64,000 nt of DNA from Anas platyrhynchos (lineage: Eukaryota; Chordata; Aves; Anseriformes; Anatidae), in NCBI RefSeq assembly GCF_047663525.1, contig NC_092587.1, positions 42,988,501 through 43,052,500 of the forward strand, in the 5' to 3' direction. Within the stretch, counting starts at the first letter, position 1. Each line of letters begins with the position of its first letter. A model generated the notes under the pieces. That model was given only the letters and a program-made list of their open reading frames with translations, was not told the origin of the DNA and searched no databases. The position numbers and the translations under genes are program-made. Below are positions 3,501-63,880 of this stretch, piece by piece.

Positions 3501-6396
3501 CTCTGAGCAGTGTAGCAAAGCTCTTTCATCACAGCTCTTCCCATTTACCCTAAGAAGTTTTCCATATCCAGCACTCAGCAATGCAAATCCTGCCAGTCAG
3601 CAGCATGCACGGCCTTATAGCATTCCTCTTACCTTGGCCAGAAGCTCTCCCTTGTTTTCTAGGCTGTGCATCAATAGAACAACCGACCCCTTGTAGCCAC
3701 ATGGAAAAGGGGGAGGCATTACGGTGAGTCCTGTGTAAAGCACATTCAACCCTGATGGCTTTAAGCATTGGGCATCAAGTATTATTCCCACCTGACTTCA
3801 TAGCTTGTTTGGGTAGAGGAAAAGAAAAGCAAAGATCATCTTTTCACAGCAAAGGCCAGCTGCTTTTTAACTGTTTGCCTTCTTTTCTGGATGTTCACTT
3901 ACCTCTCACAAGGATATACACTCCATTTCCCATTTTCAGGATTTCACCCCACCGGACCTCACAATAGTAGGTGCCAGAAGAGTGGCTTTCAAGCGGCATG
4001 GTTTTGTGATTGTAGGATTTGGTTATGGACGTATTCTCTTTTCCAGGGGGGATTTGTACATGTTCATCCCGATTATAGATGGATGTCCTCTGACCCAATG
4101 AATTAAACCAGTAATAGGAGATTGAAAATCTGGTGTATTTCAGGGTGTAAAGGAAGGTGACTTCACAGGGGATGGACACTTCTTCCTTGAGCAGTGCAAC
4201 TTGGATTAGAGGATTCTGCTGTACGTCGACATCTCCCCCTGCAAGGGTGATAATTGTTAGCAGGCACCTAACATCACCATAAGTCAGGAGAAAATTGCTG
4301 CCCCAATCACGTGGTGAAAATAAACATATGTCGGGAAGCACGTCTGGAGCGAGCACTGTTGGCCCTTGTCAGAAACTGAGTGATGCAGAGCACATGCCCC
4401 GTGTGATCTGCCACAACTCTTAGGTCATTGCTGCGTGATTGGAGATAGCTTGTTGCAATCACAGACTTTCCCTTTTCCCTCGTGAGCACCTCGGCACAAT
4501 GCTGGCATACAGAAAGAGCAGAAATGAAGCAGGAAGTGTACTGATTTTGTGCTGGCGTGACACTGTTTACAGAGGATGACTGGAAAGCGGTTTTCTAAGG
4601 TAAACACTCGCTGGGCATCCTCTGTAACTCCTGAGTTACAACCCTCTGCTTGGGCGTGTACACATGCACGTGATCACAGTGCACCAGTGAAGGCGCTGTG
4701 TGCAAGCAGGTGTGTCGGTGGAATTGTGCATCTCTGAGACAAGAATAAGGAAGGAAATTGCATATTGTATGCTGGGCATGAGAAATAAGACACAGCTTAA
4801 TCGCTCCTAACTTCTGCTGCTGTAAACAGGCAGCAAAGTACGAGAGTGGATGCTAGATGCAGTAACTATCTGCAGAGGACTGCAGATCTTAAATCCCTAT
4901 ATGTGACAGTATTTCAGGTAGGGAGATGGGAGAAGATGCCCTTCACGTGCTTCCTCCTTACTCAGGTCTGTTGAAAGCAACCTGTCACTGTAATTCTGTA
5001 GACAATCATGTTGGGTATTACGAGAGAGGATGAGTAAGCACAGATGGGAATCCACACCACAGTTCACTCCCCGTTTTGCAAAATAAAATAAAAAAAAATG
5101 AGTAAGTCACAGGCTCGTAAGGAGCCTGGGGTACAGAACCTCCTGGCAGCACAGCCAAGTCTGGGTTTAACGTCAGTCATTCTCTGGTAGCTGATATATT
5201 CAGCAGCTGATATCGCACCACACAGAAACCACCTTAAGAGGAAGCCTGTGCAAAGCAGTGTTGCCTTTAAAAAAGGGAACTGGAAACTTGCATCAAGTCT
5301 TGTTACAAAATGAAAGACTCAGGATTCTTTCCCAGACCTGAAAATAGAAGGGGAAAATACAGAGAGGGAAAGTAGAGGATGGGCAGGCTTTTCCTTCACG
5401 GGTTTGATGGGACTCTCTGGGGTTCAGCATCTACGAACAGGCTGATAACCAGGCGTTAATAAGGCAGTCCCAGAGCACAGCCAGGCTTGTTCTCCTGTCA
5501 CCACGCAGTAACACCGCATCGCAACAGCAGCATCACCTCTGCCTGGTGGGGCTCGGCATCAGAGGAGGCAACGCTTGACTTAACGCTACTGAATGCAGGC
5601 CACTAAGGAGAACAGAGGGGTGCAGTAACAGAAGGAGGGCACGATCACTGTCCAGAACAGACTTCAGGGGAGTAACAGCACTTAAGAAAAATCCCCTACA
5701 GATGACACAGCCAGGCACAATACCCTAAGAGTAAAGAAGAGATTAGGTTACATCATTAGGAAGAGGTTCTTAGCTGTAAAAGCAAGTGAGATACAATACA
5801 GTCCTACGGGACACGGTCTTTGTGAGTGCTCAGCCCTGTGTGCACTAGATACAGCGTTATGGAAAGAAGGCAACAGAAAATCCCGCAGCCAACATGGGAG
5901 TGATAACCTGCGCAGTCCCTTCTGTGCCTTATTTTCAAAAATAATTCATCAGCCTTATCCTCATCTGTACCCAGCAGAACACACATGAATGCTGTTTCTA
6001 TACAAGACATTGCAAAGCATTGCCCTAACAAAACAGAGGAGAGATCCATCTTTTTGCAGCATCCCAGGAGCTATTAGCTTGAGAAGAACATGCCAGGGAT
6101 AAAGCCCAACCATTTTATTTAGGTTATATAACCCTTCTCCCATGTTCCCCCTTTCTTAAGGATTCTCTCTCTGAGCTTTGAAATGCTTAAAAGACAGAAA
6201 TAGCAGCAGTGTGCAAATTCCTGGAGGGGAGCTCTGGAAATTAGAAAAAGATAGCAGCTGGAAATGCTCTAATATGAACAAATGTTGAGAGTAAACAAAA
6301 GGAAAAAAATATATATATTTTTTTACCTTCACAGAGAAGCGACCAAAGAAACAGGAAGATGACTTTTAGATTAGAGGCCATGGTAGGGTCAAAAGG
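565..6396 (-). CDS. NFAM1: NFAM1, ITAM-bearing Ig-domain receptor (3' end outside window)
   Basis: Type I membrane receptor that, in the known family, signals through an ITAM to activate NFAT and cytokine promoters in B cells and myeloid cells. Exons read on the minus strand: 6327-6396 (ATG at 6381, signal peptide MASNLKVIFLFLWSLLCEG, ends in phase 1); 3903-4238 (Ig V domain, phase 1 at both ends); 3024-3133 (membrane segment DILITFTTLLAALSIIATAL followed by VWKRK); 565-648 (28 codons, ending PPPPSPVYD at a GTGAGT donor). The Ig exon has the cysteine pair SIPCEV and GTYYCEVRW, followed by GNGVYILVR. Human NFAM1 has GTYYCSVRW and GNGVFILVR at the same place, which fixes the identification. One N-glycosylation sequon (NTS) is seen. 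VYD is the first half of the ITAM; the second YxxL and the C-terminus must lie left of base 1. Exon 3 appears to end at a GC donor (AG/GCAAGT). A good acceptor (TTTCTTACAG) lies 15 bases before the ATG, so a further non-coding first exon is possible. Confidence 0.9.
649..3023 (-). other. NFAM1 intron 3
   Basis: Intron between the transmembrane exon and the first ITAM exon. It starts with the GC-type donor at 3022-3023 and ends in a weak acceptor at 649-650. A pyrimidine-rich tract is seen on the plus strand near 1,900-2,130. I recognise no gene or repeat in it. Confidence 0.6.
4239..6326 (-). other. NFAM1 intron 1
   Basis: Intron between the signal-peptide exon and the Ig exon, with donor GTAAAA at 6325-6326 and an acceptor ending TTGCAG at 4239-4240. 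No coding sequence or repeat family is recognised inside. Confidence 0.6.
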
Positions 6397-21200: not shown

Positions 21201-21869
21201 TCATCTCCCAGCCCCGGCTGCGGAGGGGCCGGAGCCAACACTTTGCTCTGACCCCCGTCTCCTGCCCGGGGGTGACGCCACCACCTCCTGCGGGCACGTC
21301 CCTGTGGTGTCCCCCGCGGCAGCAGCGCCAGCAGGCAGGCGCCGGCGGCACAGTTCTCGAAGCGTGGGCACCGCTCGGCGGCTCCGGCACAGGGGCTCCG
21401 AGAAGACCAGGGGGGTTCCCCCCATCTCATCAAAGTGCAAGGGGTTGTTGCGGGTCCCCGCCACCACCAGCTCCAGCAGCCGGACCACGCAGTCCGAAAA
21501 CCAGTTCTTCAGGCGGAAATAGCCCTCCTGGAAAGAGATGCGGAGGCTGACGGGCCCCGTGGGCATCCGCACGCTCAGGCTGAACAAGCAGTTGCCCTGC
21601 GAGCTGTCCCGCACCAAGTAGGTGCCAACGGGCTCCCGCTGGAGCTTGGCGTGGGCCTCCCCCACGGACAGGGGACCCCAGTAGAAGTCGCTGGCCTGGA
21701 GGATGTTGAGGGACCGCTCCAGGACCTCCCACTCGCAGCTGCGAAACATCCGGAAGCGATCGGGCAAGCCGGGCGGCACGGGGCTGGGGAGGACGCTCCG
21801 ATGCTGCCTTTGCGGACGAGGAACAGTGGCGTGCGTGTTGTGCAGATCATCTGGCCTCCCTCTGATCAT
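21201..21869 (-). CDS. SOCS1/SOCS3-like suppressor of cytokine signalling
   Basis: Single-exon frame of 222 codons. Residues 36-50 (PDRFRMFRSCEWEVL) match the kinase inhibitory region of SOCS1, which blocks JAK kinases. Residues 61-155 are an SH2 domain: DFYWGPLSV at the start, the phosphotyrosine-binding arginine in YLVRDSS (Arg87), then SLRISFQEGYFRL. Residues 167-178 (VPTLRELCRRRL) fit the elongin BC box of a SOCS box. FYWGPLS is typical of SOCS1, while GGTPLVFSEPL before the SOCS box is closer to SOCS3. It is therefore a separate paralogue, not SOCS1 itself. After the BC box the frame becomes G/A/P-rich and I cannot find the LPLP-type cullin-5 box of other members, so the C-terminus is either diverged or truncated. 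The start at 21,869 is favoured because an acceptor with a long pyrimidine tract lies 66 bases upstream. This gives the usual SOCS layout of a non-coding first exon and a single coding exon. Likely role: negative feedback on JAK-STAT signalling in the cytosol. Confidence 0.85.
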   Translation of the reverse strand: MIRGRPDDLHNTHATVPRPQRQHRSVLPSPVPPGLPDRFRMFRSCEWEVLERSLNILQASDFYWGPLSVGEAHAKLQREPVGTYLVRDSSQGNCLFSLSVRMPTGPVSLRISFQEGYFRLKNWFSDCVVRLLELVVAGTRNNPLHFDEMGGTPLVFSEPLCRSRRAVPTLRELCRRRLPAGAAAAGDTTGTCPQEVVASPPGRRRGSEQSVGSGPSAAGAGR

Positions 21870-21914
21870 CTCTCAAAGAGCCCATGGATCCTGGGAAGAC
21901 GCTGCCGTGACCAT
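21847..21914 (-). promoter_or_regulatory. Two upstream ORFs in SOCS-like leader
   Basis: Within the coding exon (starting at 21,935 after acceptor CTCTCCCGCAG) two upstream ATGs precede the main start. One is at 21,914 (13 residues, ending at 21,873, same frame as the main start). The other is at 21,885 (12 residues, ending at 21,847) and overlaps the main ATG. Mammalian SOCS1 is known to be held back by upstream ATGs in its leader, so similar translational control is plausible. Confidence 0.5.
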
Positions 21915-21935
21915 CCTTCCTCCTTCGCGTCCAGC
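21870..21935 (-). other. 5' UTR part of SOCS-like coding exon and its splice acceptor
   Basis: A strong acceptor (pyrimidine tract TTGCTTCTCTCCCGCAG) sits at 21,936-21,937 on the minus strand. The first exon must lie further right; the nearest convincing minus-strand donors in a CpG island are at 32.3 and 32.58 kb. Confidence 0.6.
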
Positions 21936-21999
21936 CTGCGGGAGAGAAGCAAGAGTGAGGCCAACCCTCCACGCCCTCTCGCTGGGCAAGTGGAGACAG

Positions 22000-39138: not shown

Positions 39139-39735
39139 TCATAGAATAGTTTGTGTTGGAAGGAACCTTAAAGGTCATCTAATTCCAACGCCCCCACCAT
39201 GGGCAGGGACACCTTCCACTACATCAGGGTGCCCAAAGCCCCACCCAGCCTGGCCTTGAATACCTCCAGGGATGGGGCATCCACAGCTTCTCTGGGCAGC
39301 CTGTGCCAGGGCCTCACCACCCTCTGAATAAATAATTTCTTCCTAATGTCTAATCTAAACCTACCCTCTTTTAGTTTAAAGCCATTACTCCTTGTCCTAT
39401 CACTGCACTCCCTGATAAAGAGTCCCTCCCCAGCTTTCCTGTAGGCCCCCTTTAGGCACTGGAAGGCCACTATAAGGTTTCCCTGGAGCCTCCACTTCTC
39501 CAGGCTGAAAAACCCCAACTCCCTCAGCCCCTCTTTGTAGGACAGATGCTCCAGTCCCTTGATCATCTTTGTGGCCCTGCTTTGGACTTGTTCTACACTT
39601 CTGCATCCTTCTTGTGCTGGGGGCCCCAGAGCTGATCGTAGCACTCCAGGTGGGGTCTCATGAGAGCAAAGGAGAGGGGGAGAATCACCTCCCTCACCCT
39701 GCTGGCCATGCTTCTCTTGATGCAGCTCAGGCATC
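39139..39735 (-). mobile_element. CR1 LINE fragment with ORF2 C-terminus
   Basis: Starts with CATAGAATAGTTTGTGTTGG (reverse complement of the CR1 3' end). The minus-strand translation gives the C-terminal reverse-transcriptase tail: LSYKEGLRELGFFSLEKWRL, then GFKLKEGRFRLDIRKK and VVRPWHRLPREAVDAPSLEV. The 5' part is missing, as is usual for CR1. The frame is open over much of the fragment, so it is younger than the 37.4 kb copy. Confidence 0.9.
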
Positions 39736-41489
39736 AGGAACTCATTCATATCAGCAAAAATTATTAGAAAAATAGGGAAAATTAAGGGGAAAGTATGCAA
39801 CAAATGTCAAGCAGAGCCCAGAGGTGGCAGAACTTCTTGGGCTGCAGGACATTCATGTCCTGCCTCAACTCTTCCCATGTGGGCAGCACATTTAAACCCT
39901 TGTGACTCCATGGGAGTATCTCCAAGGGCCCATTAGGGATCCATGCTCTGAGGAGCAGGGCCTTCCCTGTTGTCACTGAGTGCCTCTCTGCTTCTCCCAG
40001 CCCCACTGTGGGCTGCCCAACCAGTGGGGGGCTTTATATACTGGTTGTGCTATCCACTGGAAGAAAAAAATGAGTTAAGCTAGCAATAGGATGCTTTTTT
40101 TACTCATATAACTGTGTGAGAGAGTTTGGGGTACAGGGCTATAACTAATAAATCACCATAAATAGATCAATATGCCAGCACTTTAAAGCTTGAATCCGAA
40201 TAGCTATGGGGAATTTGTCCCTTGGTAGCAATCAATCTGCTGTACTTAAAGTTTCCTCACCAGATCTGCAGCTAGCACAAACTGATCAATGCTGTTCCAA
40301 GTCAGCAGAGCATAACAGCTTTGCATGTCCCAAGATTTACACTTGCAAGTCTCCTCCTCCTCTGCTAGGACACAGAGGTTAAATTATCCTTTGCTAAGTG
40401 CATGGGACATCTCAAACTAACTCCCAGCCTTTCATGCAAAACCAGCCTCTTACTAGCCAGGAAACACCTCAGCACCTTGCCAAGCGAAGGCTAATTTGGT
40501 CCCACACCGGCAGCAAAGCCACTGCAGTAGCCTGCAGCACTTCTTAGAAGTAGATGTTGCAAAATAAATTCTGTGAGCAATCCAAATTTTGCCATGCATC
40601 CTCAACAGTCCTCTCCTCGTGGGAAATGGTTTGCCAGGCGGTGTCAGAGGGAAGAGATGCAGTGTTGCAGGATGCTGGGCTGCTCTTTCAAACTGGCTAA
40701 ACAGCACTGCTAGAGTGGAGAAGAGTGGGTATGAGGGACCTGGAAAAAATCTCAACAACCTGCCTTTGAATTATAGGGTGACAGTGATGCTGCTAAGGAA
40801 GGGTCCAGGGCTGCATCCCAGTGCATTGTAAAACCTTCTTCACTTGGAGCTCCAGCTCTGAAAGAAGGTCCTCTCTGGAAGAGCTGTCTTTGTTTGGGAA
40901 AAGGCTTCTCTCTGTGCTGCTCCCATGGGGAAATCTGTTTCTGAATCATAAATCCGACAGTTGTGCCAGGTGTTTTGTGCCTACCTGCAGTGGAGATAGG
41001 AAAGGTGGGGAGGGAATGAGAGGTGAAAACATCTCTCCCAGGCAAATGGAAGCACAGCTAGAATGGCTGGCAAGGGGGAAGCAAGAGTAACCATTTGGGA
41101 ATTTGAGATGGGACCATCCTACCAGAAACATGTTGCTCATCCCTGGGAATACCCTTCTATCCCACATCATCTATTGCTGGTGATTTCTGTAAGGAATTTT
41201 CCCTTTTCCCTGAGGTTCCTGTTGATGGAGCCTCCTACCCTAGTGAGTAGGAATGCAAGACATGGGAGTCAGAATTCACGAGAGGAGCCATCCTTCCCAC
41301 CCAACACCTAGAGGTCATCTCTGTGACTCAAAGCAAAAAGCCCAGTTTCCTCTGGCTGCTTGACGCAGGATGACTTCTGGCTGCAGGACGATGGGGGAGA
41401 GGGTCCAAGACCTGTGAGTGGCAATGCACATACCTGCAGGGCAAGCATTTAGAGCAGGATCACCCAAGCAAGGCTTGTGCCTGAAAATT
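39736..41489. other. Intergenic, no gene recognised
   Basis: No exon or repeat recognised. A TTTATATACT motif near 40,032 resembles a TATA box but has no gene attached. Confidence 0.35.
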
Positions 41490-43960: not shown

Positions 43961-44639
43961 GAACCCCAAAGGAGGGACTGGGGAAGGGGACACAGCGTGA
44001 GAGAAGTGGGGCAGGGTTTGGGGGGCAGGGACCAGATGGGCTTGGGGTGATGGGAGGATATTCGGGACAGCCCTGGAAGAACCCCAGAGGCTGGGCAGTG
44101 CTGGGGGGTTCACTGCAAAGCCTGGGGCTGAGTGAAAGGTGAGATGTAGCTCAGGGACTGCCAGGGCAGCTACGGGAAGGTGTCAATAATCTAATACTGA
44201 AGACAGTCTCCTCGTTCCCAAAATTGCCTTCTTGGTCCGAGGCAGGTGCCTGACTCCTTGCTGGGGAAATTCTGCTTGCTTCCCTCTCGCCAGATCGCTC
44301 GTGCCCTCTGGTCAGGTCGCAGCTGCTGCGGAGTCACGGGGGGAGTTTTTCTCCTCCTGCGCAGGGAAAGCTGCTTTCTTCCCAGGAGCGGTGCTGGTAC
44401 GTGCTGGGAGGGGGAGTCCCCAGGCAGGCGAGCAGGAATGGCAGCTCGGGATGTTAAATGGGGAGCTATAAATCAGCAAGCTGCTAATTAAGACCGCAGA
44501 AGCCTGGTGAGTTACTAAAGACCTGTATTACTCTTTTCAGAGAGCTCTGGGCCATTAACAAGCTCCCTGGGACCTGTTTCAAGCACGTGGCTCACAGGGG
44601 ACATTGCTTGAGAGCACTTTATTTTGGGCATGTTCTCAG

Positions 44640-47600
44640 AGGTGAAGTTTCCCGTGCCCTGGGGCCATTTGGCAGCCAAGGCCTGGGGATCCCCAGAGGG
44701 ACACCCTGTGCTGTGCTTGCACGGCTGGCTGGACAACGCCAACACCTTCGACAGGCTCATCCCTCTGCTCCCCAAAGGTGGGTCTGGCTCACTGGGATGG
44801 CTCTTGCTGTGTTGCAGGGCCACATACCTGATGCTTTCTCCCTTGCAGATTGCCATTACGTGGCGATGGATTTTTCTGGCCATGGTTTGTCATCCCACCG
44901 ACCTGCAGGCTCCCCCTACCATTTTCTGGATTATGTGAGCGATGTGCGCCGGGTCGCAGCAGGTGGGTAGTTAAGGGACCCTAGAGGGATGTTAGTGCAG
45001 GGGGTGCTCTGTCATTCCTGCTCTTGGGAAGAAGTAGGCAGCATTTACTGCTGGGAGAGGGGTCAGTTCCCTTTGCTTCTCCCCATTCTGATGTTGGCTG
45101 GTGCTCTGATAATGCAAACTGAATAAAAACACATCTTTCAGTGAGGTATGTTTCAGATGGCGGCATTGATTACGTGCTATTTTCCCATGAGCCTCTCATA
45201 GTGCCCTAAAAATGGTCTGAAGAGCCCAATTCACTAAACTTGGAATAATCCTCCTTTCACCCAGGCAGCAGACCTGGCTCAGCATCCTCTCTGCTCCTGC
45301 TGAACGCCCTGCAGCAGGGTGCTTTGTCAGGGTCTCCGTGTATCAGGCACCTTTGGTTATTGCCACTCTGGTGTCTGGCAGAGTGGGAACGTGCTGTAGT
45401 TTGCCACACAGAGAGTGCTCAAGAGCTGTGTGACTTAACTACCAAGGAAATGAGGTGGTGGATGTGCTTTTTTCTTGAAAACCGGCCGACTTAGCCAGCT
45501 CATTTCTGGGTTGGGAAGCAAATTAAGCATTGCAGAAGCCCTCCTGGGAGAAGGGGCCTGTGGTGGTCGAGAAGCAGCAAAATGCTGCTGCTCCGGTTTC
45601 TAACGCAGCACTGTCTGTTTTTGTCTGTTGCCACTTAGCATTGCAGTGGAGACGGTTCACCCTGATGGGTCACAGTATGGGTAAGTGGCTCTTGTCCTTG
45701 TAAGCTGTGAGATTCACGGAAATATGAGTAGATAATTAATTTACAAGGCATGCTGCTAGGAGCTGGGTTGGAATATTTATTATACTGTGTCAAGTACCGG
45801 GTTCTTGCTTGAGTGATTTGAAAATCTGCACCCTTGTTTAAAATGCCTCTGTTTTCAAGACGCTGTGGTACAAACAGCGTGGCTCTCCCTGTGGGCATTT
45901 CCTGAACTCCCAGGAGGGAACAGGGATGGGTTGGTTTAACACAGCAGTAGTCACAGCAGTCCTTCCTGCTGTCCCTGGGCTTTGTGGCCTTGTGGCCTCC
46001 AGGCAGGGTCTTGGTGGGTCACAGGGCTTGCTGAGGGGAACCAGGACTCTGTGTCCTTGATGTGGGTTTGGTTCCCCAGGGCTGCTCTGTACCTGCTGGC
46101 AGTAGTGTTTTAACTGGTAACTCTTCCTTACCTTTGCTGCCTGAGAGGGAGATGGGGATGTGGCAGGCCAGCCATCCCCTTCTCTCCTTGTGTTCTCCCT
46201 GCCAGAAGAACTTTGCTCTGTAGCCTGGGCTTTGTGCCTCGGCACGAGGTGCATTTGTGCCTCTAAGGCAGCTCCTGTGTGGGGAAGGGGAGTTCCTGTT
46301 ACCGGGGGTGTCCTGCTTATAACTGAGCACCATTCTTTGCTTTGCAGGTGGGGCCGTGGCAGGAATGGTGAGTGAAACGTTCTTTCTTCATGGGGTTTGT
46401 GACTTTTGCAGCTGGAACAACAAATGGGAGGGGAATAAAGGGGCAGACTGTGTGAGACTTGGATCTCAGGGGAGGAGAGGCCATTCTCTGACTCCTCTCC
46501 AGTGTAACAGGATGAAGACAGCACTCAGTGTGCTGCTTTTTGCTTTGTCTCATAATGTTTCATCTTTCCTCAGTTCTCGTTCCTTTATCCTGAGATGGTG
46601 GACAAGCTGATCCTGCTGGAAAATCTCGGCTTTCTGCTAGCTCCAGAGGTTAGATTTCACGTGTTGTGCCCCTCCCTTTTATTAAATAAAAGATGTGTTT
46701 TTTTTTTTACATCATTGTCCAAGGAAAGCACTGATGTGACCAGTCCTTTTGGCAGGCACAGACGTGCTTGTTGTTGCATGAAGCGTGGTCCCTGCTTAGG
46801 GTGGCCCTTGAAGAACACTTGGTAGTGCTGAGCATCCCGTAGTCCCGTAGCATTGAAATTCACTTGTCTGTACTGTGCTTGTGTGCAAAAGGAACTGGAA
46901 CGTCTGGCCAAGCAGCTGCAAGGTTGTCTTTTTGCCAACAGCTTGTTGGGTGACCTGGATGCAAGACTGGCAGATTTCTTTTTCTGTTCCTGGCAGGACA
47001 TAAAGCTGCTTTCCCAAACTGCCAGCATGACTCCCAGGTGCTGGGGGGTGGGAGGCAGAAGGGGGGGACAGAGGCACAGGGTCAGAGAGACAAAAGGTAG
47101 CAGATTTCCCTTGTTCTTTTGGACACTTGTCCTCAGCTCACAAGTGAAGTGGGAGGGAGTAGGAGAGATTGCCAGGGTGAAAAGTTAACAACTTCAAGCA
47201 CTGCTGTATAGGTTTTCAGCTTCTACCTTGCCTGTTATGTATTGCTGTTCCCTTTCCCCCAGGAGTGGGCAGTTTTAATACGATGTCTGTAACTGGTAGG
47301 AGTTACGAGAGATGTTGAAGGGTGAAATACCCCTTTCTACCCTCTTGATTAGGGGTAAAATGACTCAGAAGAGGGAGGTTACTCCTGTGCTCTACGTGGC
47401 TTTGTTTTAGGACACTGAGGCGTGGCTGAAATCAAAACGGATGGTTATCGACAGGTTACTGAGCCTAGAGGCAAGGCAGCAAGCTCCCAAAGCACATAGC
47501 CCTGAAGCAGCATTGCAGAGGTGGGTTCTCATCTGTCTTTTCGTTTGCTGCCTGCCCTCATCGTGGACAGCTATGGGTGCATGAACAATAAGGTGAAACT

Positions 47601-51976: not shown

Positions 51977-54757
51977 TCAGTACGGCCTAAACTTGCGCTG
52001 GGCTCGCATCAGCGCGATTCTTTGCTTGTCCTCTTCGAATTTCTTCCTCAACTGGGCAATATCTGAAATGGGCAGAACAAAAAAAAAAAAGGGATGTCGT
52101 ACAGGAGCAGCAGACCTCCCTCTCCCTGGGGAGCTCCACCTCAGCAGACCGTGACGGGTTCAGTCCTGCCACTTTAAGCACATGCTTCCCAGAGCAGGTC
52201 CCTTTGCACCAGGGCTAAATACAGAGCTGAAGCTCTGGCTGTTCTCCTGCAGTGCTGCAGCTCCCTCTTGGGGACAGAAGATGCTAGTTTTCCCTCTCAG
52301 TAGCTGCCTCTATGCAGACTGACAAAATCTGTTAGAAAGCTGTGATCTGTATGCTCTCCCACAGATTGTTAGGCCGCGTGGTGGCAAGGGCCCATGGGAA
52401 CTGGTGAGGCCATTCACACCACCACCAAGGCAGCTGTTCACCTGCAACTGGCTGCTGAAGGAAAAAGGGATAGTGTGGTCCACTCTTTGGACCACAGCAA
52501 GAGGAAAGAGACAGGCAGGAGGGGACTCAGACACTCACGCTCTCTCTTGGTCTCGCGATGCTGCCAGGCGTAGAAGTTGAGCAGCTCTTTGCGGGCCCTT
52601 TTCCGCCTCTCCCTCTCCAGCACCCGCAGGTTGGCGGCCTCTGTCCGGGGCAGGCCAGGCTTCCGGCCCCTCCGTGTTACCTTCACCCAGCCCTCCTCAT
52701 CTGGCACGCCCTCCTCCTGGGCCGCTTTGGCTTCTTCCTAGAAAGGCAGGAAGGCAAGGCGCCTTAGTGCAGCTGGGCTGCCAGCCAGTCTGAAGCATGG
52801 CTCCCCCAGGGTCCCTCTTACACATGTGAAAAGTTACAGCAAGATTTGAAGGAAGGCACGGAACCAAGGACTGAGGTGCTCAAGTCTCAGTCACAACAGT
52901 ACGTGCCAGGACACACTTTATTTGTGGATACCAGGGGCGATGAAACAAACCAAACCAGAACCTGGCTGTTCACCACCAGCCCTGCCAGCCACTGTGTTTC
53001 CCCTCTGCCATTTGCAGCAGGGCCTGGGCACTGGGAGATCCTCTCTCTCTTCCTTTCCCCCTCCAAACAAACTGCTCAGGCTGGGTTTCCTCCCCAGCTT
53101 GGCCTCACCTGTGCTACCTTCTTGTCATAGTCTTGCATGAAGGTGTCCACCTCAGCCTTCAGTTCTTCCTGATCCACTACTGAGTCTGCGTATCTGGCGA
53201 TCCACTCTGAGACACAGACAGTAGAAGTCAGCCACAGCCTCTGTTAGAAGCAAGCCCCAGCGTGGTGCATTTAAGCAGCTCTAGAGAGAACTGCTGTAGG
53301 AAATGACACGCTCCAGTCCCATTTCTGTTCAGCATCCCCACTGCCTTAGCTCATGAACATTCAACTTGAGACCCAGGCCACAGGCAGTAAGCAATGGGAA
53401 GCTAAATGATGGGAAGAGCTTGCATCTTCCCCGAGCAGGAGCGAGCTACCTGAAGCCCAAGAGGTGCAACATTCAGGGCTGCCTTCCTACCAAGGGGTCA
53501 TCTTGCAGCCTCTGGTGCCTGTTTATGAGTCTGGCTTCCGTTCTGAGGGTAAAAAACAGCCAGTTTCTCTGCAGCTACGTGAAATTGAGGAGATGTGGGG
53601 AAAAACTCTCCTACCATTGGACCAAGTGGACCCCATCCTCCTGTAGGGTCACTTAGTGAGGCTCTACAATGCCCAATACAAGAAGATAGCAATAAGATAG
53701 AGGAAAAAAAGCAGAATAATGAAATATTGGACATCTCACCAGCTCAGGCTCATCACGAAGAGGCAAGAATGAAATTGAAACATGCTAGGAAGTATTCAGC
53801 AAGGAAGAGGTTTCCCCTGCTCTGGCTGACAGGAGGACAGCTGCTGCTTACTTACTACTAACGCCGGTTTTCACAGGGTGACTGTCCGTTGATACCAGCA
53901 GGGGACCTTCCTGTGCCAGGGCCTTGACCGCCTGGACGCTGGCTGGTTTCTTGAACACCACGTACGCTACTCGAAATCCCTACAAGAAGAAGAGCCACCC
54001 AGGCCAGTCAGATACACTGATATATGTACTAAGGTGATGCAGGAAGGAGCTGAAGCATAGAATAGCAATCAAAGCACAAGTTACAGAAGGATGGATAAAA
54101 AAAAAAAAAGGAAGAGAAAGATAAGGCAATGTTGAACCACGTTGCCAAGTCTACTCATGTAGTTTTTCCACAACTCATGCTAAAGAGCACTGCTCAGGAG
54201 TTGAGCCTTCTTCCCCTTGTGACCACTACAAAACTCCAGTCACCTCCCCCCGAGCGTTACCGTCGCGGTCCTGCGGCCGAAGAACCTGGACCTCTGCTTC
54301 TCCGCCTTCTCCCCCGGCCCCGGCTTGTCCCTGACGTCCACGCTCTGCACCGGCCCGCAGCTGCCGAACAACCTGGACAGAGCCCCCTTGGTGCGGAGAC
54401 CGGGAGCCGAGCGTCAGAGCGGGGCTGGAGCGCCCCGGCCCCGCCAGGAGCCCGCCCCCGTCCCCTCGGGCACTCACCGGGCCGCAGTAGGGGGGCACGT
54501 TGAGGACGAAGAGGGTGCGGGCGGGCGGGTGCGCGTCGCCGGGCCCCTCCCGCACGCGGTGCTCCTTCACCAGCAGGCAGTGCGGCGAGCGCTGCCGCTC
54601 CCCGAACTTCACCGCCAGGGCTGCGGGAGACACGGCGGTCACACAGCGCTCGGAGACGCTCCCAGCCCCCGCTCCCCCCTCCCCCGCCGCCCCCCGGCCC
54701 CTCACCCGTGTATCCCGGCGGCGCCGCTCCCGCCCCACGCGGCCCGGCGGCCGCCAT
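51977..54757 (-). CDS. RRP7A: RRP7A, ribosomal RNA processing protein 7 homologue
   Basis: Nucleolar factor of the small-subunit processome (UTP-C/RRP7 module), needed for 18S rRNA maturation. It is complete: seven exons on the minus strand, 54706-54757, 54478-54620, 54261-54386, 53856-53979, 53109-53206, 52539-52737 and 51977-52062, joining in frame to 275 residues (human 280). Exon 2 holds RTLFVLNVPPYCGP, continued in exon 3 by GALSRLFGSCGPVQSVDV. Together these are the RNP-like strand and helix of the degenerate RRM. Exon 4 gives GFRVAYVVFKKP and GPLLVSTDSHPVKTG; exon 5 KWIARYADSV; exon 6 VPDEEGWVKVTRRGRKPG and RKELLNFYAWQHRETK. The last exon gives the RRP7 signature QLRKKFEEDKQRIALMRAQR, ending KFRPY. 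The N-terminal exon is shorter and G/A/P-rich compared with human. The gene starts in a CpG island with the ATG inside a TISU-like element, and its tail faces that of SERHL2. Confidence 0.97.
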
Positions 54758-63090: not shown

Positions 63091-63214
63091 CTGAGAAGAA
63101 GCAAGATAATAGTTTACAAGAAGGTAGATTTACTTTAGACGTGATTTCTAAAATAAGTGATTTTCTCCTGTCTTCAGCCTTCTTCAGAACACACGCGGTA
63201 ACAGAAGGAAATGG

Positions 63215-63880
63215 ACACAGAATAGTTTGGGTTGGAAGGGACCCTAAAGAACATCCAGTTCCAACCCCCTGCCTTGGGCAGGGACACCTCCCACCAGAGC
63301 AGGTTGCCCAAAGCACCATCCAGGCTGGCCTTGGACACTTCCAGGGATAGGGAATCCATAATCTCTCTGGGCAACATGTTCCAGCACCTCACCACCCTCA
63401 CAGTAAAGAATTTCTTCCTTATATCTAATCTCAGCCTACCCTCTTTTAGCTTAAAACCATTACCCCTTGCCCTATGACCACACTCCCTGCCAAAGAGTCC
63501 CCTCCCAGCTTTCCTGTAGGCCTCCTTTAGGTACTCGAAGGTAGCCACCAGAGCTCTCCCCGGAGCCTTCTCTCCTCTAGGAGCTCCAGCCCTCTGATCA
63601 CCTTTGTGGCTCTCCTCCAGACCCACTCTAACAGGTCCACGTCCTTATGTTGGGAGCCCCAGAGCAGAACACAGCACTCAGGTGGGGCCTCAAGAGCAGA
63701 GCAGAGGGGGATTCACCTCCCTCACCCTGCTGGCCACGCTTCTTTTGATGCAGCCCAGGATATGGTTGGCTTTCTGGGCTGTAAGCACACGTTGCCAGCT
63801 CGTGTTGAGCTTTTCATCAACCAGCACCCCCAAGTCCTTCTCCTCAGGGCTGCTCTCCACCCACACCCAGACTGGATTCA
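63215..63880 (-). mobile_element. CR1 LINE fragment in POLDIP3 intron
   Basis: Begins ACAGAATAGTTTGGGTTGGA, the reverse complement of the CR1 3' end. The minus-strand translations give GFKLKEGRLRLDIRKKFFTV and VVRCWNMLPREIMDSLSLEV, plus the more upstream [17 protein letters not shown] and [19 protein letters not shown] of the CR1 reverse transcriptase tail. 5'-truncated, inserted in the same orientation as POLDIP3. The sequence is well preserved, so it is among the younger copies here. Confidence 0.92.

Follow-up and report, generated by a model that had tools for sequence, protein, structure and literature searches.

A probable avian SOCS1b gene near NFAM1 in the genome of Anas platyrhynchos, with an apparently degenerate SOCS-box end

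Introduction

That birds keep a second SOCS1 is not new: Wang et al. 2019 (PMC6368001) described such a gene, SOCS1b, from birds, amphibians, the coelacanth and the elephant shark, though not from mammals. In their account the 2R gene SOCS1b is the sister of SOCS1, the SOCS gene total for birds is nine, and chicken SOCS1b has an additional exon inserted in its 5'-UTR; the main text mentions neither NFAM1 nor 22q. A chicken gene called SOCS1L is among the innate immune genes differentially expressed in the thymus after vaccination (PMC8119446). For reptiles, including crocodilians and turtles, Xia et al. (PMC8236234) collected the eight canonical SOCS genes and appear not to mention a second SOCS1.

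The PDB entries 6c7y and 6c5x are chicken and frog SOCS1 (PMC5908791). In the kinase inhibitory region (KIR) of SOCS1, His54 is a tyrosine mimic; mutation of F58 abolished inhibition, with F55 mutated the IC50 rose by a factor of more than 50, and single changes elsewhere in the KIR cost about tenfold. In the same paper, binding of SOCS1 to Cullin5 is about 100 times weaker than that of most SOCS proteins, owing to the IPLN motif.

Here we describe an extra SOCS gene in a 64-kb stretch of the genome of Anas platyrhynchos (C1:42988501-43052500), hereafter the window. The nine SOCS loci found in the genome equal the nine published for birds, and by gene count and kind the extra gene is most likely the SOCS1b already published. 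Both are SOCS1-type second genes, one of nine SOCS genes in all and absent from mammals, and in both the coding exon lies behind 5' noncoding sequence, of which only the splice acceptor is visible here (PMC6368001). Chicken SOCS1L (PMC8119446) is likewise a SOCS1-like bird gene and presumably the same one. We assign a probability of roughly 0.85 to the reading that the gene is avian SOCS1b, a 2R survivor absent from mammals that encodes a SOCS1-like JAK inhibitor with weak or absent ligase function. The earlier note on this DNA had supposed that mammals lack the gene at this place, and absence from mammals agrees with Table 2 of Wang et al. (PMC6368001).

The coding exon

The gene lies on the minus strand of the window, with a candidate promoter region upstream:

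21201-21935, minus strand: coding exon of the probable SOCS1b, from the splice acceptor CTTCTCTCCCGCAG, which ends at 21936, open to the TGA at 21203-21201
21201-21869, minus strand: open reading frame of 222 residues, stop included, with the first in-frame ATG at 21869
21873-21914, minus strand: upstream ORF 1, 13 residues, with A at -3 and G at +4
21847-21885, minus strand: upstream ORF 2, 12 residues, overlapping the main start codon
31801-33600, minus strand: CpG-rich block (CpG observed/expected 0.64-0.84 in 400-base windows), which may hold the promoter and a 5' noncoding exon belonging to the SOCS gene

The 222-codon frame behind a splice acceptor that the earlier note described was confirmed, with its ATG at 21869, its stop at 21203-21201 and the acceptor CTTCTCTCCCGCAG. 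An in-frame stop stands two codons before this ATG and the next in-frame ATG falls inside the KIR motif, so no ATG of the exon other than that at 21869 yields a complete KIR. Because two upstream ORFs precede it, translation of the main frame would require leaky scanning or reinitiation.

By its codon composition the frame is not a chance one and looks coding, though not as far as its stop. The KIR and SH2 domain have GC contents of 0.61/0.45/0.93 at codon positions 1/2/3, and the linker and BC box have 0.69/0.54/0.79. When open 105-codon segments of the window were scanned in six frames at steps of 5 codons, none of the 1332 segments elsewhere reached a GC3 minus GC2 difference of 0.45, which the SOCS frame exceeds over KIR-SH2; this signature was the strongest among the segments scanned. 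The CpG-rich block lies about 10 kb upstream of the exon on the SOCS strand, and no gene was identified within it.

KIR, SH2 domain and predicted structure

The part of the protein in front of the BC box has the order of a SOCS1- or SOCS3-type protein, a KIR directly before a central SOCS-type SH2 domain:

21741-21758, minus strand: KIR core RFRMFR (HFRTFR in SOCS1), located by alignment to SOCS1, with residue roles from PMC5908791
21513-21686, minus strand: part of the SH2 domain matched by Pfam PF00017 (E = 4.7e-6), containing YLVRDSS

The SOCS1 and SOCS3 traits noted earlier, namely DRFRMFRS, YLVRDSS, FYWGPLS and GGTPLVFSEPL, are all present in the translation, together with TLRELCRRRL. The Pfam SH2 match (PF00017) scored 27.1 bits, above the cut-off of 21 (E = 4.7e-6). 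In a phmmer search of the PDB, chicken SOCS1 (6c7y_B, E = 4e-26) and frog SOCS1 (6c5x_D, 5.6e-21) were the best matches, followed by SOCS2 (about 3e-16) and SOCS3 (5.7e-14 and weaker). The top ten of the 23 matches at E <= 0.001 comprised two SOCS1, four SOCS2, three SOCS3 and one SOCS6 entries; PI3-kinase subunits, SOCS4 and others came after them.

Four of the six KIR core residues that correspond to His54-Arg59 of SOCS1 are kept (F55, R56, F58 and R59), including the two phenylalanines, while H54 is replaced by Arg and T57 by Met. The equivalent of F58 is F42 when residues are numbered from the ATG. Since KIR changes of this kind cost SOCS1 about tenfold, JAK inhibition by the extra SOCS may be weak.

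AlphaFold gave a mean pLDDT of 40.9 without an alignment and 66.4 with an alignment of six SOCS paralogues from the same genome, and the latter model was good only over the SH2 domain. It contains a confident helix, an SH2 fold with pLDDT mostly 80-93 over residues 51-140, and a tail with pLDDT below 50 over model residues 178-214.

The C-terminal tail

The SOCS box, which normally combines a BC box and a Cul5 box, is recognisable here by its BC-box motif alone:

21336-21365, minus strand: elongin BC-box motif TLRELCRRRL, equivalent to the first SOCS-box helix; it lines up with the BC-box segments in six further SOCS frames from this genome
21204-21335, minus strand: C-terminal tail of 44 residues, with no recognisable Cul5 box and no coding periodicity

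The elongin BC box claimed earlier is present as a motif, but the rest of the SOCS box is unrecognisable, and Pfam SOCS_box did not match the 222-residue protein. Among the controls for this profile, frog SOCS1 matched at 7.8e-7 and SOCS3 at 1.8e-4, the latter itself below the family cut-off. The Cul5-box segment is kept in all six of the other SOCS frames aligned and reads IPLNP in SOCS1. The aligner places a tail proline (SPPG) under the Cul5-box column; we take this as chance, though it may be a degenerate Cul5-box remnant. The coding signature weakens from about codon 155-160 (in 20-codon steps), no other frame clearly resumes it, and over the last 43 codons the GC contents at the three positions are 0.72/0.81/0.70. 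Its place in the SOCS family comes from KIR-SH2 homology and not from the SOCS box.

The remainder of the SOCS box might lie in another frame or in a downstream exon. Two motif patterns found none between 21400 and 7000 in any of the three frames of the minus strand. On the six other SOCS ends of the genome, the Cul5-type pattern detected five, missing SOCS3, and the end-type pattern three; a third pattern, which detects five of the six ends, had no match in the downstream frames either. A SOCS3-like end that lacks the usual sequence could escape detection, since the SOCS3 end is missed. With these patterns empty and no frame resuming the coding signature past the BC box, a hidden remainder in the frames searched appears unlikely. 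A base error in the assembly may have disrupted the SOCS-box end; against this, patterns that detect five of the six ends match no downstream frame, although they miss the SOCS3 end.

The same features raise the question of decay, in which SOCS1b of this bird would have dropped its SOCS box and be turning into a pseudogene. The coding signature that fades from codon 155-160 and is gone in the last 43 codons, the lack of a recognisable Cul5 box, the long branch in the tree below and the two upstream ORFs would all suit a decaying gene. However, KIR, SH2 domain and BC box are free of stops, GC3 stands at 0.93 against a GC2 of 0.45 over KIR-SH2, and the YLVRDSS loop is intact along with four of the six residues of the KIR core; we consider decay improbable. 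In SOCS1b as we read it, the fading of the coding signature at the BC box and the want of a recognisable Cul5 box are apparently undescribed before. In the literature, supplements and subscription papers aside, we found no description of this locus or of a missing SOCS box.

SOCS genes of the genome and sequence relations

The genome (1.26 Gb in 42 contigs) gave at least seven matches with the extra SOCS protein as the query and at least nine with its own SOCS3, so that among 18 candidates scored there are at least nine loci, a ninth SOCS beside CISH and SOCS1-7. The frames at the other loci read as SOCS1 on C15, SOCS3 on C19, SOCS2 on C1 at 47.5 Mb, CISH on C13, SOCS6 on C2, SOCS5 on C3, a SOCS4-type frame on C5 and one exon of a SOCS7-type gene on C28. 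The names SOCS1, SOCS2 and SOCS3 were assigned by comparison with printed PDB chains, and those of SOCS4-7 and CISH by likeness to known family members. Over the 116 residues printed for chicken SOCS1 (6c7y_B), the C15 gene matches without a difference. The view that the window holds an additional SOCS gene belonging with SOCS1 and SOCS3 was supported: it is a ninth locus beside eight frames of canonical type, and it joins SOCS1 and SOCS3 in the tree (90/92).

Identities were computed over residues 38-141 (KIR-SH2). The extra SOCS is identical to the genome's own SOCS1 at 49/101 positions (48.5%), to frog SOCS1 at 42/101, to its own SOCS3 at 38/101, SOCS2 at 37/90 (41.1%), CISH at 31/82, SOCS6 at 32/92 and SOCS5 at 30/89, and to a human SOCS1 sequence at 53/101. 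Compared with SOCS1 (chicken 6c7y, frog 6c5x and the genome's own), it shares the KIR, the pre-SH2 helix, FYWGPL/FYWGPM and the LxELCR of the BC box; it differs in the KIR changes H54R and T57M, keeps GGTPLVFSEPL, has neither the IPLNP segment nor the SOCS-box end, and is only 48.5% identical to its own SOCS1 over KIR-SH2. With SOCS3 (2bbu, 4gl9 and the genome's own) it has in common a KIR before the SH2 domain and GG..PLVxSxPL before the BC box, but it is only 36.5-37.6% identical over KIR-SH2 and lacks the long post-SH2 insert and the LPxP Cul5 box.

Could the gene have arisen recently by duplication of the avian SOCS1 or SOCS2? SOCS1 is its best match in the genome after itself, and SOCS2 shares its contig at a distance of 4.5 Mb. 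However, the identities of 48.5% to SOCS1 and 41.1% to SOCS2 are below the 75/103 between chicken and frog SOCS1, and a forced grouping reached p-AU 0.047 with SOCS1 and 0.065 with SOCS2. SOCS2 is not known to have a KIR, which we also count against a SOCS2 duplicate. A recent origin by duplication thus appears highly improbable, and the extra SOCS is probably an old sister of SOCS1.

In the 12-row tree the extra SOCS grouped with the SOCS1 rows (91/96) and, one step deeper, with SOCS3 (90/92), both below 95 in at least one of the paired values, on a long branch (1.43). Its immediate neighbour there is human SOCS1 (50/92), a placement that we take as noise from common GC-rich composition. Eight clades were asked of this tree and six were AU-tested, with uncorrected p values. 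Forcing the gene with its own SOCS1 cost 8.5 log-likelihood units (p-AU 0.047), with SOCS2 17.8 (0.065), with SOCS2 and CISH 13.7 (0.100), with SOCS3 6.1 (0.246), outside SOCS1+SOCS3 5.9 (0.259), and outside the SOCS1 rows, so that the SOCS1 clade excludes it, 1.9 (0.372). A seven-row tree gave the same outcome with less support (SOCS1 grouping 75/56), and its AU values were 0.037 with chicken SOCS1, 0.134 with SOCS3 and 0.337 outside SOCS1+SOCS3. The earlier note had named placement within avian SOCS1 or SOCS3 as a recent copy as the outcome that would overturn its view; the trees narrowly disfavour a recent copy of the genome's SOCS1 (p-AU 0.047; 0.037 with seven rows), while the SOCS3 grouping (p 0.246) is not rejected, nor quite is that with SOCS2 (0.065).

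The trees do not firmly separate a SOCS1 sister from a third branch beside SOCS1 and SOCS3, in which the gene would descend from the SOCS1/3 ancestor as a 2R ohnologue of its own at a 22q13-type locus and be, strictly, neither SOCS1b nor SOCS3b. For such a branch, SOCS1 traits (FYWGPLS and NC after the RDSSQ loop) are mixed with the SOCS3-type GG..PLVxSxPL, and AU allows a position outside SOCS1+SOCS3 (p 0.259; 0.337 with seven rows). The GG..PLVxSxPL segment occurs in the extra SOCS and SOCS3 and is absent from all three SOCS1 rows, suggesting that the extra SOCS split off before the SOCS1 rows radiated. However, a LxLxxPL stretch is similar in SOCS2 and CISH, so that the segment may be ancestral, the best trees group the gene with SOCS1 (91/96; 75/56), and Wang et al. 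put the 2R gene SOCS1b as sister to SOCS1 (PMC6368001). Such a third branch is unlikely, in our judgement, and we retain SOCS1b as a SOCS1 sister. Fish SOCS8 was rejected as an orthologue, as it has been argued to be a CISH paralogue, CISHb (PMC3238403).

Linkage and neighbouring genes

The window contains parts of several neighbouring genes:

3898-4368, minus strand: NFAM1 immunoglobulin exon (Pfam Ig_NFAM1, E = 2e-15), left of the SOCS gene
44612-44935, plus strand: exon of a presumed SERHL2-like hydrolase, named by eye from its translation, with no Pfam match
51980-53243, minus strand: 3' exons of RRP7A (Pfam RRP7, 4.5e-14 at 52441-52737 and 6.2e-9 at 51980-52159), right of the SOCS gene

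The SERHL2-like name is our assumption; a further RRP7A exon at 53079-53243 matched RRP7 with E 0.014, under the cut-off. The position between NFAM1 and SERHL2 that had been claimed holds for NFAM1 by Pfam, while SERHL2 is identified by eye, and RRP7A also lies in the window.

The earlier note further saw the gene as a candidate for the missing 2R ohnologue in a 22q13-type block. Exons for the RBFOX C terminus were located at C15:5.72 Mb, C19:0.63 Mb and C1:55.24 Mb and TNRC6 exons at C1:53.39, C19:8.09 and C15:19.37 Mb, neither on any other contig, and SOCS1/3-type genes lie at C15:3.11, C19:0.52 and C1:43.01 Mb. Which RBFOX and TNRC6 member sits at which locus is presumed. Two neighbouring families are therefore shared across the three chromosomes, as the earlier 16p13/17q25/22q13 argument predicts, and one SOCS1/3-type gene with RBFOX and TNRC6 on each of three contigs also fits the third branch discussed above. 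The linkage on C1 is loose: the extra SOCS lies 10-12 Mb from RBFOX and TNRC6 and SOCS2 is also on C1, so the linkage supports and does not prove a 2R ohnologue set. C1 joins blocks found on different human chromosomes. Pentraxin-domain loci were found at 11 places, on C26, C9, C18, C15, C10, C1, C19, C35 and C3. They could perhaps represent one more family in this paralogous set, but being on six other contigs besides C1, C19 and C15, they are weak as a third linkage family.

Proposed function

By analogy with SOCS1, RFRMFR would occupy the catalytic groove of JAK1, JAK2 or TYK2 as a pseudosubstrate, the SH2 domain would brace the KIR against the kinase and could bind phosphotyrosine, and the JAK would thereby be unable to phosphorylate its targets. 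Since no part of the SOCS box beyond its BC-box helix can be recognised, the protein probably recruits Cullin5 weakly or not at all, and the kinase that it binds would be ubiquitinated little or not at all. The SOCS1 IPLN motif is already weak for Cullin5, and the extra SOCS carries no recognisable motif of this kind, so any ligase function is probably slight. The likeliest mechanism by this comparison is that the KIR-SH2 part inhibits JAK, while ubiquitin-ligase function is slight or lacking. A stronger version, that birds, or this bird at least, keep a SOCS1 ohnologue without its ligase half, a KIR-SH2 protein with a bare BC-box helix and a pure JAK pseudosubstrate inhibitor that completes the 16p13/17q25/22q13 2R set with SOCS1 and SOCS3, we hold more tentatively, at somewhat less than an even chance.

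An extra avian JAK inhibitor would bear on differences in interferon and cytokine signalling between birds and mammals, and results on mouse and human SOCS1 would not transfer simply to birds. The locus near NFAM1 and RRP7A offers an anchor for tracing SOCS1b in crocodiles, turtles and amphibians, and a decayed SOCS box would be a natural test of the share of ubiquitination in SOCS1 function.

Other features of the window

A tRNA scan and an Rfam scan across the 64-kb window gave no matches, and a search of viral contigs found no relatives of the 222-residue protein. Two related frames occur elsewhere in the window, at 39219-39806, where Pfam gave no match, and at 63174-63644, both on the minus strand. 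They resemble the 3' part of bird CR1 elements and are presumably of that origin.
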